From: Providencia hangzhouensis
Lineage (GTDB): Bacteria; Pseudomonadota; Gammaproteobacteria; Enterobacterales; Enterobacteriaceae
Direction of reading: 5' to 3'
Length of the DNA: 64,000 bases
Assembly: GCF_029193595.2 (NCBI RefSeq)
Contig: NZ_CP135052.1
Coordinates: 1,736,001-1,800,000 of the forward strand
The notes under the pieces are model-generated. The model was not told the DNA's origin and did no database searches. It was given only the letters and a program-made list of their open reading frames with translations. Positions 30,969 to 33,532 of the stretch are shown here, in pieces. A program made the translations under genes and the position numbers. Every line of letters begins with the position of its first letter. The first letter of the stretch is position 1.

Positions 30969-30996
30969 TTGACTCAGAACTCAGTATCCCTATAAT
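30969..30996 (+). promoter_or_regulatory. Strong promoter of the Val/Lys tRNA array
   Basis: TTGACT (30969-30974) and a perfect TATAAT (30991-30996) with 16 bases between, followed by a GCACCTCC discriminator typical of stringent stable-RNA promoters. It lies 18 bases before the first tRNA-Val. The rest of the 423-base gltX-tRNA gap is AT-rich and shows no gene. Confidence 0.88.
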
Positions 30997-31014: not shown

Positions 31015-31090
31015 GGGCGATTAGCTCAGTTGGTAGAGCACCTCCCTTACAAGGAGGGGGTCAGTGGTTCGAGCCCGCTATCGCCCACCA
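31015..31090 (+). tRNA. tRNA-Val (TAC), copy 1
   Basis: 76-base cloverleaf with encoded CCA; anticodon TAC in CCTTACAAG. Leader 31004-31014 and trailer 31091-31102 are nearly complementary and would extend the acceptor stem in the precursor. Confidence 0.98.
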
Positions 31091-31116
31091 CCGTTGACGA
31101 TGAAAAATAAATAATT

Positions 31117-31192
31117 GGGCGATTAGCTCAGTTGGTAGAGCACCTCCCTTACAAGGAGGGGGTCAGTGGTTCGAGCCCGCTATCGCCCACCA
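31117..31192 (+). tRNA. tRNA-Val (TAC), copy 2
   Basis: Identical to copy 1. Flanked by complementary AT arms: AATAAATAAT at 31106-31115 and ATTATTTATT at 31193-31202. Confidence 0.98.
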
Positions 31193-31226
31193 ATTATTTA
31201 TTATAATGTAGTATAAGTCATGAAGT

Positions 31227-31302
31227 GGGCGATTAGCTCAGTTGGTAGAGCACCTCCCTTACAAGGAGGGGGTCAGTGGTTCGAGCCCGCTATCGCCCAC
31301 CA
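31227..31302 (+). tRNA. tRNA-Val (TAC), copy 3
   Basis: Identical to copies 1 and 2. Flanked by ATGAAG (31220-31225) and CTTCAT (31303-31308). Confidence 0.98.
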
Positions 31303-31338
31303 CTTCATCAGTTATTTGCATTAAAACACAATTTAGAT

Positions 31339-31414
31339 GGGTCGTTAGCTCAGTCGGTAGAGCAGTTGACTTTTAATCAATTGGTCGCAGGTTCGAATCC
31401 TGCACGACCCACCA
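31339..31414 (+). tRNA. tRNA-Lys (TTT), copy 1
   Basis: 76-base cloverleaf with encoded CCA; anticodon TTT in CTTTTAATC. TTAGA before and TCTAA after the gene can pair. Confidence 0.98.
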
Positions 31415-31446
31415 TCTAAGCAGTAAAAAATCAGATCTTCCAAGAT

Positions 31447-31522
31447 GGGTCGTTAGCTCAGTCGGTAGAGCAGTTGACTTTTAATCAATTGGTCGCAGGT
31501 TCGAATCCTGCACGACCCACCA
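31447..31522 (+). tRNA. tRNA-Lys (TTT), copy 2
   Basis: Identical to copy 1. Its CCA end is immediately followed by the 142-bp repeat array that reuses the last 19 bases of this gene. Confidence 0.98.
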
Positions 31523-32090
31523 TCTCAAGCCATTCCCAAGCAAGTAATCCAATTTAACCGTCACCTAAGTAAACACTCAGTCGTTAAGCCGTACCTCGAC
31601 AAGCTGGTTGCAGGTTCAGCCCGTAGGGCAAATCCGAAGGATTTCAATCCTGCACGACCCACCATCTCAAGCCATTCCCAAGCAAGTAATCCAATTTAAC
31701 CGTCACCTAAGTAAACATTCAGTCGTTAAGCCAGACCTCGACAAGCTGGTTGCAGGTTCAGCCCGTAGGGCAAATCCGAAGGATTTCAATCCTGCACGAC
31801 CCACCATCTCAAGCCATTCCTAAGCAAATAATCCAATTTAACAATCACCTAAGTAAACATTCAGTCGTTAAGCCAGACCTCGACAAGCTGGTTGCAGGTT
31901 CAGCCCGTAGGGCAAATCCGAAGGATTTCAATCCTGCACGACCCACCATCTCAAGCCATTCCCAAGCAAGTAATCCAATTTAACCGTCACCTAAGTAAAC
32001 ACTCAGTCGTTAAGCCGTACCTCGACAAGCTGGTTGCAGGTTCAGCCCGTAGGGTAAATCCGAAGGATTTCAATCCTGCACGACCCACCA
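31523..32090 (+). repeat. Four tandem 142-bp units ending in the tRNA-Lys 3' end (rtT-like)
   Basis: Units at 31523-31664, 31665-31806, 31807-31948 and 31949-32090 are each exactly 142 bases and differ at only a few positions. Each ends with the same 19 bases as tRNA-Lys (AATCCTGCACGACCCACCA) and, further upstream, has a GCAGGTTC like the tRNA T arm. Between these lie two small hairpins (GCCC-GTA-GGGC and AAATCC-GAA-GGATTT), so each unit has an expanded T-arm-like structure. The layout mirrors rtT repeats of the E. coli tyrT operon, which carry the last 19 bases of tRNA-Tyr. The array should be transcribed with the tRNAs. Confidence 0.9.
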
Positions 32091-32165
32091 GCTCAAGCCA
32101 TTATCAAGCAAATAATCCAAACTAATACTTAGCTCAGTAAACACTTACTCACTAAATAATACACC
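32091..32165 (+). repeat. Decayed fifth repeat unit
   Basis: The sequence gctcaagccattatcaagca and what follows aligns with the first half of the 142-bp unit at roughly 70% identity, then the match fades and the tRNA-like end is missing. Confidence 0.65.
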
Positions 32166-32358
32166 TATTTTGTAAGTTGCATTTTCTAAGTAATATGATA
32201 AGAACTTAGAGAATTATCGGCTACACAGCCCGCCTAATATGTAAAATAATTCAAGATGTACTTTGAAAGCCACTTAGTTTTTATGTCTATATTCCAATAT
32301 GGCATTAGCAGGATATATTTTAAAATATAATGACGTCATTTAAGCATAAATGAATGGC

Positions 32359-32402
32359 TAATTACTCTTCCATAGAATGGACGAGTAATTATCATTTTTT
32401 AT
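32359..32402 (+). terminator. Strong terminator downstream of the repeat array
   Basis: A 14-bp stem with one mismatch (32359-32373 with 32377-32391), an AGA triloop, and a T run at 32395-32400. It is the first strong terminator after the tRNA promoter, so the whole tRNA-repeat message may end here. Confidence 0.85.
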
Positions 32403-33232
32403 AAATAGCTTTCATTATATCGTAAATATAAAAATCTGTAATTTAGCTATAAATGCTTAAATTGTGTTTATTTTTAAAATTTTGTATTATCCTTCATCCT
32501 AAAAAAACAGAAACAAGTGGAATCAAAAACAGACTGTCGATGAAAGTTATTTTTCATAATTTTGTGATATTCATCTAGTAAAATGAATAATAAGCTTTCT
32601 TAACGTTATGGTTTTGTTATGTTTGGTACTTGTAGATAATAAATCCATTTCTTGCTACTTTAAAAATTTAGTAATTTACTAATTGTAACAGTTTAACTGG
32701 CTTTTTAACGTACTGATATTTTGTCGAATTAGAGAGTTTTAGAGATAAAATTGACTGTTTTTACCATTTTTTACATAAAAGTATCATTTATACTGGGTTT
32801 ATCACTTTTTATCGAGTTTAATTGTATCAATAACATTAATATTGTTACAGTGTTAAATAATTCTATTTATTTCCTTTATTTTTAGGTTATACATCGGCTA
32901 TATAGGTCTTTTTTAGATGAATATTCCAAGGGTTTAGGCATATCCTCTGGAATATTACTATGCAGTGATACACACGTTGCGTGTAACTTTGTGATATTAA
33001 AGTATTATTTTGATTTTAATACGGAAATGTATAGCGTGAAATACTTTGTTACATAGTTGCAATGTCAATTTAGGACTAGTTGAAACTAATTATAAGGGTA
33101 GTATATCATTCTGTTAGATATATGCTGAATCGTCTGTAGCATTATCAATGTTATACACATAAATATAAAAAATAAAATATGTAGATAATTATCTGCTAAT
33201 TTTTATTTCCTTAAATATAAATTGAAGCGAGA
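32403..33232. other. Long AT-rich region without a gene
   Basis: About 830 bases with no plausible reading frame on either strand. Visible structure is limited to short inverted repeats: AATATTCCA (32920-32928) with TGGAATATT (32948-32956), and ACACG-TTG-CGTGT (32972-32984). It may be the control region of the MrpJ-like gene downstream or hold an unrecognised small RNA. Confidence 0.5.
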
Positions 33233-33238
33233 ATGTTT

Positions 33239-33532
33239 ATGAACACGAAATATCCTGTCGCTTGTGCAGTTGGACAAAAAATAAAAGCCCTTAGAAGAGC
33301 TCAAGGCTTTACTGTTTTTCAGTTAGCTAAAGAGATAGATATAAGTGAACAGCAGCTATTTCGTTACGAGCGTGGTGTGAATCGTATCGATATAGATTGT
33401 CTAGTTCGAGTATTAAAAGTTTTAGACGTTAACATGGGTGAGTTTTTTAGTGAAGTCCTGCAAGAGGATACTCAAGTAGATGAGAGCACGGGTAATCAGG
33501 GGTTTGAAAGCTCTGCATATACTCTGGTGTAA
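33239..33532 (+). CDS. MrpJ-like HTH (Xre-type) regulator
   Basis: A 97-residue protein with a Cro/C1-type helix-turn-helix at about residues 12-65 (GQKIKALRRAQGFTVFQLAKE, ISEQQLFRYERGVNRID). This QQxxRYERGxNxI pattern is shared with MrpJ-family proteins of Proteus and Providencia, which end fimbrial operons and repress motility genes. No fimbrial gene is near, so this is a stand-alone copy. ATG 33239 is slightly favoured by spacing to AGCGAG; ATG 33233 in the same frame adds two residues. The assignment to MrpJ rests on my reading of the HTH only. Confidence 0.75.
   Translation: MNTKYPVACAVGQKIKALRRAQGFTVFQLAKEIDISEQQLFRYERGVNRIDIDCLVRVLKVLDVNMGEFFSEVLQEDTQVDESTGNQGFESSAYTLV

Follow-up and report, generated by a model that had tools for sequence, protein, structure and literature searches.

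What are the tandem repeats that follow the last tRNA gene of an operon in Providencia hangzhouensis, each ending like the tRNA before it, and are they a new kind of element or a form of a known one? The array occupies positions 31523-32090 of the window, by which is meant the whole stretch of 64,000 nucleotides that was analysed. Its layout recalls the rtT repeats of the Escherichia coli tyrT operon, in which every unit closes with the final 19 nt of its host tRNA and whose function has been an open question for decades. The original prediction called the array rtT-like and offered decoys, a small RNA or a recombination relic as possible roles. As judged from sequence comparison, it is well supported that the array is real and conserved in kind, and that it is an RtT-derived, tRNA-chimeric variant, i.e., a new form of a known element.

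The tRNA-Lys operon and its repeat array

The operon at 31015-31522 has the order Val-Val-Val-Lys-Lys, with three tRNA-Val and two tRNA-Lys(UUU) genes identified by ARAGORN. The features of the locus are as follows.

30969..30996, + strand: promoter-like site TTGACT-16 nt-TATAAT upstream of the tRNA operon, matching the consensus at 11 of 12 positions
31015-31090, 31117-31192 and 31227-31302, + strand: three tRNA-Val(UAC) genes (ARAGORN, Rfam tRNA)
31339..31414, + strand: tRNA-Lys(UUU) copy 1 (ARAGORN; Rfam 79.2 bits)
31447..31522, + strand: tRNA-Lys(UUU) copy 2 (ARAGORN; Rfam 79.2 bits), the gene whose 3′ end recurs in units 1-4
31523..31664, + strand: unit 1, 99.9 bits with model R1, which was built from short units of this kind and whose unit scores are not independent
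31665..31806, + strand: unit 2, with the plan of unit 1 (R1, likewise not independent, 99.9 bits)
31807..31948, + strand: unit 3, with the plan of unit 1 (R1, likewise not independent, 99.9 bits)
31949..32090, + strand: unit 4, with the plan of unit 1 (R1, likewise not independent, 99.3 bits)
32091..32165, + strand: decayed fifth unit, which keeps linker-like sequence (20 C and 5 G in 75 nt) but has neither the core nor the tRNA end
32358..32400, + strand: AT-rich hairpin (~32358-32390) followed by T6, a possible transcript end

The promoter-like site is a putative promoter; the region around it contains 21 such sites against 8.9 expected. The strong terminator predicted downstream is doubtful: two consensus scans found none 3′ of the array, and both missed the AT-rich hairpin there, which folds at -14.8 kcal/mol (32356-32400) and ends in T6. 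About 1 kb of AT-rich sequence (32166-33232) separates the array from an ORF of 99 aa (33233-33532) whose product, on visual inspection, looks like a small HTH protein. Three overlapping + strand ORFs at 31608-32125 (71-77 aa, TTG starts) are a product of the 142-nt period and were not considered genes.

Anatomy of the repeat unit

The array has a period of 142 with 4.3 copies and 96% matches, and in-register copies recur every 142 nt from 31504. As originally described, all four 142-bp units carry the last 19 bases of tRNA-Lys; the match is exact and no longer than 19 nt in each, and the fifth unit is indeed decayed, consisting of linker-like sequence only. Each unit runs from a C-rich linker through a degenerate copy of tRNA-Lys nt 11-56 and a pair of T-loop hairpins to the exact tRNA-Lys 3′ end. 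In unit 1, these parts lie at 31523-31575 (linker), 31576-31617 (degenerate tRNA-Lys), 31618-31645 (a 28-nt T-loop insert with hairpins at 31619-31629 and 31630-31644) and 31646-31664 (3′ end). The two-hairpin insert sits where the tRNA T-loop has its G. The tRNA-Lys-like body scores 36 against tRNA-Lys nt 11-56 in units 1 and 4, where the best shuffles give 25 and 26 and none of 500 reaches the score, and 31 in units 2 and 3, which one of 500 shuffles reaches. No unit was called a tRNA by ARAGORN or Rfam tRNA, so none counts as a functional tRNA. The statement that the body differs from that of the tyrT repeats is incomplete, as the body is partly degenerate tRNA-Lys and also holds the remnant of the RtT hairpins.

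Kinship with RtT

The suggested search with the Rfam family RtT (RF00391) gave no match in the window at the gathering score, in 31300-32700 at E up to 10, or genome-wide. In the relaxed search of 31300-32700, tRNAs were recovered along with matches below threshold, for example YrlA across the tandem tRNAs, and these were set aside.

The relationship becomes visible in congeners. RtT occurs at tRNA-Lys in the same slot in 10 of 23 Providencia genomes, with a best score of 107.3 bits against a gathering score of 45; the matches of one of the genomes, G002, are all below the cut-off, as are 17 of the 68 RtT matches overall. In one array (L048), RtT-type units of 171 nt and short units of 102 nt alternate. 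Short units of two congeners (L080, L074) are identical to RtT of a third locus (L076) at 46 of 49 positions, and at 27 of 28 once the last 19 nt are excluded, in a comparison of six short units with six RtT units picked by hand. The window's own unit agrees with RtT at 22 of 26 positions outside the tRNA end, with a score of 26 against a shuffled maximum of 24 (0 of 200 shuffles reach it). The two T-loop hairpins are the counterparts of the final two hairpins in the RtT comb, as seen in L076 and others; the short unit has these two only and not the full comb. Because RtT holds the same slot in congeners, the two unit types alternate in one array and the hairpin stretch is identical at 27 of 28 positions, the array is read as an RtT-derived variant and not as a new kind of element. 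These comparisons point to common descent of short units and RtT, with a weaker direct similarity for the window's own unit, and the label rtT-like is right and names an actual relationship. Very probably, then, the units of the array are shortened RtT-tRNA chimeras that lie within the 3′ trailer of the Val-Val-Val-Lys-Lys operon of Providencia.

The direction of this change was addressed with a gltX tree, a quick single-gene tree of 24 rows, including two long outgroup rows, on which unit types were assigned by hand; G018 has no row, and G020 and G021 have no type. The short form is confined to a clade of 16 rows (SH-aLRT 98), and the sister group of six rows (93) comprises four genomes with RtT only, one with neither type and one unjudged. 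Since RtT also follows tRNA-Lys outside Providencia, this tree makes RtT more likely than the short form to be ancestral.

Distribution in Providencia and its relatives

The same genome carries a second array at its other tRNA-Lys(UUU) cluster (G000:C1:3339653-3340308, - strand), with four full units and one truncated unit. The truncated unit of this array (locus L040, G000:C1:3338400-3341300) has been reduced to 86 nt via an internal deletion. A survey of the stretches around the 77 tRNAs listed for this genome, forming 36 loci including both arrays, found tRNA 3′-end fragments at the two tRNA-Lys(UUU) clusters and none at the 34 other loci, including those of tRNA-Lys(CUU) and tRNA-Tyr. Likewise, model R1 found, besides functional tRNAs, the array at both tRNA-Lys(UUU) clusters only.

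Beyond this genome, a pattern scan of named genomes returned ten stretches, in Providencia rettgeri (three strains), P. vermicola, P. rustigianii and one Chimaeribacter coloradensis. When R1 was run with strict filters against 295 genomes of the family, scores above 60 bits occurred, among the matches listed, only in the four Providencia genomes included; a real tRNA-Lys scores 38.4 bits, and the best listed genome outside the genus 43.7 bits. In the closer comparison of 23 Providencia genomes, the short form was found in 15, at 25 loci, and short units or RtT in 20, five of which have both. Neither unit type was seen at the two loci examined in G009, and G020 (no locus fetched) and G021 (masked stretches) were left out. 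An assembly artefact is unlikely because congeners in separate assemblies have such arrays.

Several other repeats were observed at the loci inspected. A regular-expression search found 12 tRNA-Lys pseudogenes with T-loop hairpins among functional tRNA-Lys genes, in nine loci (L041, L042, L045, L048, L052, L062, L073, L077 and L079). At L044, in a congener, a series of CAAGTT/CAAGTG hexamers resembling a microsatellite has expanded an RtT-like unit, between the last tRNA-Lys (end 852) and a fragment at 1202-1217, to 365 nt. In another family of the order, L091 (G045, ~1174-2692) holds tRNA-Lys/tRNA-Val pairs in near-identical 266-bp tandem repeats, an amplification of whole tRNA pairs and not of fragments. 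Finally, L124 (G050) has repeats, with fragment ends at 2558, 2758, 2842 and 3042, that finish in the tRNA-Ala 3′ end to within 1-2 mismatches; their bodies are unlike RtT, and they may have arisen separately as tRNA-end repeats.

RtT behind other tRNAs

The original prediction regarded the host tRNA as a point of difference from tyrT. The host is indeed tRNA-Lys and not tRNA-Tyr, but this is not special, as the 68 RtT matches, found in 20 of 60 genomes and all downstream of a tRNA, lie behind tRNAs for Lys (39), Tyr (14), Ser (9), Arg (3), Pro (2) and Glu (1). In 47 of the 68, the last 18 nt are identical to the 3′ end of the closest tRNA upstream, the remainder having 1-12 mismatches, and over all 68 the mean number of end mismatches is 1.5 to the own host versus 7.1 to other hosts. 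In the one E. coli genome examined, an annotated RtT sRNA lies behind tRNA-Lys at the orthologous gltX-Val-Val-Val-Lys locus. Of 5426 E. coli genomes, 4793 have a match to a tRNA-Lys RtT query from another genus, with coverage of at least 80% in 3206. A passage of PMC4986893 describes RtT as arising from many E. coli tRNA operons, and one of PMC2658671 mentions a 175-bp rtT copy-number difference between Salmonella genomes. A search of the open-licence PMC literature found neither the copying of host ends across six tRNA kinds nor a paper on tRNA-Lys RtT arrays in Providencia.

Complementarity between the 5′ strand of RtT and the host 3′ end was considered as further support and dropped, being uneven over hosts. 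In a set of 55 of the 68 elements, those with at most three mismatches to the host end, a first version gave 6.93 for own versus 5.02 for other hosts; Arg, Glu and Pro were not above the control, and the 60-nt window missed the strand in Arg. A wider window with Watson-Crick pairs only gave 6.36 versus 4.32 for the same 55, with Glu at 4.00 versus 4.00 and Pro at 6.00 versus 5.60.

Recombination and what has been kept

Could the array simply be neutral debris, produced without function by unequal crossing-over at tRNA 3′ ends and gene conversion with neighbouring tRNA genes? The recombination history of the array is clear, as judged from how its copies resemble one another. Among 61 units from 21 hand-picked loci (54 linkers of at least 15 nt; L056, L074, L080 and L081 lie outside the set), units of the same array are on average 0.965 identical, those from different arrays of a single genome 0.870 and those from different genomes 0.736; the corresponding linker values are 0.937, 0.750 and 0.525. 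Such a gradient is what debris would give. The same holds for copy number, since P. rettgeri YPR31, a close strain whose GltX is 99% identical, carries a single full unit where the window has four, and five at the second locus, where the window's genome has four plus the truncated one. The 86-nt unit of the second array and the absence of both unit types at the two loci of G009 also fit this explanation.

Debris would, however, not be expected to show compensatory changes in both T-loop hairpins. In 40 distinct cores, out of 65 short units of the genus, the named core structure is paired in 96.2% of cells, while structures shifted by 1-3 columns are paired in just 14-44%. Double changes were counted in 58 cells versus 18.1 (sd 2.9) in shuffles, none of 500 reaching this number. 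The T-stem is paired in 97.0% of cells and scarcely varies. The relatedness of the cores is left in throughout these counts, and the pairs with a double change (6 versus 5.1) and the pair types (15 versus 15.1) do not exceed the shuffles. Folding of single units is less distinctive: the centroid structures of units 2 and 3 are tRNA-like, with an acceptor helix, an arm and a T-stem around both hairpins, but their minimum-energy structure differs and is 0.5 kcal/mol lower, and whole units fold no better than shuffles (z -0.6 to -1.4), though the core of unit 1 folds somewhat better (z -1.97). Taken together, the covariation provides good, though not final, evidence for a selected RNA structure in the core.

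Unexpected for debris are also the retention of C over G in linkers that drift to 0.525 identity and the presence of RtT or short units in 20 of 23 Providencia genomes. Hence, debris alone is an unlikely explanation, and the earlier suggestion of a recombination relic was right about recombination, while the hairpins and the linker composition are conserved more than a plain relic would predict.

Linkers and transcript ends

The linkers of the window's array contain 14-17 C and 3-5 G in 54 nt, and linker 1 (31523-31576; 17 C, 5 G) folds at 0 kcal/mol. C exceeds G in all 54 linkers of the identity set despite a mean identity of 0.525 between genomes. In a set of 65 short-unit linkers (25 loci, 15 genomes), 671 C and 224 G were counted, a single locus having a negative C-G mean (-0.143), and 15 Providencia RtT linkers contain 196 C and 38 G. 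In the 87 spacers that separate functional tRNAs at these loci, 399 C and 382 G were counted; the spacers are also unstructured, and the linkers are distinguished by their C-over-G bias only. Per-locus rank tests of this bias gave p values of 1.6e-6 and 1.6e-5 for loci that are not independent. C exceeds G in the 60 nt past the last 3′ end at 33 of 34 loci, and 200-260 nt further on at 20 of 39 loci.

The termination of tyrT is Rho-dependent. The Tyr RtT linkers show a weaker bias (187 C, 125 G). A scan of 57 of the 68 RtT linkers, with 11 dropped for having no earlier tRNA end in reach or being shorter than 25 nt, revealed intrinsic terminators in 2 of 2 Pro, 8 of 9 Ser and 8 of 10 non-Providencia Lys linkers, against a background of 4 in 1000 windows. 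None was found in the linkers of 13 Tyr, 1 Glu and 22 Providencia Lys RtT elements or of 63 short units. The stop thus seems to vary with the host, Tyr and Providencia Lys units having a C-rich linker and the others mostly an intrinsic terminator. The window's linkers have the sequence properties of Rho terminators, i.e., they are C-rich, G-poor, unstructured and free of intrinsic terminators. From the C bias of the linkers and this pattern of stop types among RtT hosts, we infer termination of the Rho type for the window's array.

A proposed origin and mechanism

These observations can be combined into one explanation, an RtT-derived tRNA chimera that serves as a transcript-end cassette, which as a whole we regard as evenly poised between right and wrong. 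A copy of tRNA-Lys and a copy of RtT would have recombined at the common GGTTC of the T-arm; the hybrid would then have spread to both tRNA-Lys(UUU) loci, displacing full RtT, and been homogenised by unequal crossing-over and gene conversion. RNA polymerase would run past the last tRNA-Lys until the C-rich, G-poor linkers load Rho, and transcription would end within the array. RNase P cleaves T-stem/acceptor minihelices. The tRNA-like core with its mature-type 3′ end could be a substrate for tRNA 3′-trimming enzymes and perhaps for RNase P, and the read-through RNA would be cut to tRNA and small unit-length RNAs. Such a serial cassette, coupling a Rho-type stop to tRNA-like trimming, is plausible and testable; with transcription, Rho use and processing all read from the DNA, the mechanism remains tentative and falls somewhat short of an even bet.

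Alternatively, the products could matter more than the stop, with released unit-length RNAs occupying tRNA 3′-processing enzymes, CCA-recognising proteins or Hfq-type partners and thereby tuning the starvation response. The exact 19-nt tRNA end in every unit and the paired T-stem (97.0% of cells) would suit such a source of small RNAs or decoys, and a passage of PMC4986893 presents RtT as an RNA that is liberated from the transcripts of tRNA operons and has a role when amino acids are limiting. However, copy number varies freely, gene conversion can equally give an exact tRNA end, and one E. coli screen table in PMC4606813 lists deletion or overexpression of RttR, the RtT sRNA of E. coli, as without effect, making this role improbable. 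A non-autonomous mobile element, comparable to a miniature integrative element, that inserts at the tRNA T-loop or 3′ end and duplicates the target sequence might explain RtT behind six tRNA kinds with the exact 18-nt host end in 47 of 68, but is very improbable, as the array had no match in 72,556 plasmid and 50,697 phage records and fragments occur at just 2 of the 36 tRNA loci of this genome.

It could further be speculated that RtT and the short tRNA chimeras descended from it belong to a single class of transcript-end cassettes templated by tRNAs, a generalisation that is doubtful at present. Each element of such a class would rebuild the T-stem and 3′ end of its upstream tRNA and pair a T-loop hairpin comb with a stop signal, Rho-type or intrinsic. 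Transfer RNA operons would then end in repeated stop-and-trim modules, and Providencia would display one module under replacement by a tRNA-RtT hybrid. The orthologous tRNA-Lys loci of this one genus offer a natural series, from full RtT through mixed arrays to the hybrid in one or several units, and to none seen in G009. This series separates what is kept (T-stem, hairpins, CCA end and C-rich linker) from what drifts (sequence, unit length and copy number). It also makes the rtT question testable, as one can ask whether Rho is loaded at the linkers and whether the 3′ end is determined by the core.

Comparison with known systems

BIME/REP elements share with the array that they are palindromic extragenic repeats; they are, however, spread upstream of genes, whereas the array is found in this genome at the two tRNA-Lys(UUU) clusters only. 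According to a passage of PMC2965389, certain attenuator-like BIME elements look like rtT, and BIMEs may function in termination. The tRNA-Lys pseudogenes of the genus share with the units a tRNA-Lys-like 5′ part, GGTTGCAGGTTC and the two T-loop hairpins. They differ in keeping more of the tRNA 5′ part and lying between functional tRNA genes, and in those inspected the last 3′ bases have decayed. RtT (RF00391) likewise forms tandem arrays in the trailer of tRNA operons, every unit closing with the 19 nt found at the 3′ end of its host tRNA. Compared to RtT, the array lacks the first hairpins of the comb and has degenerate tRNA-Lys as its 5′ part, a 142-nt unit and tRNA-Lys as its host.
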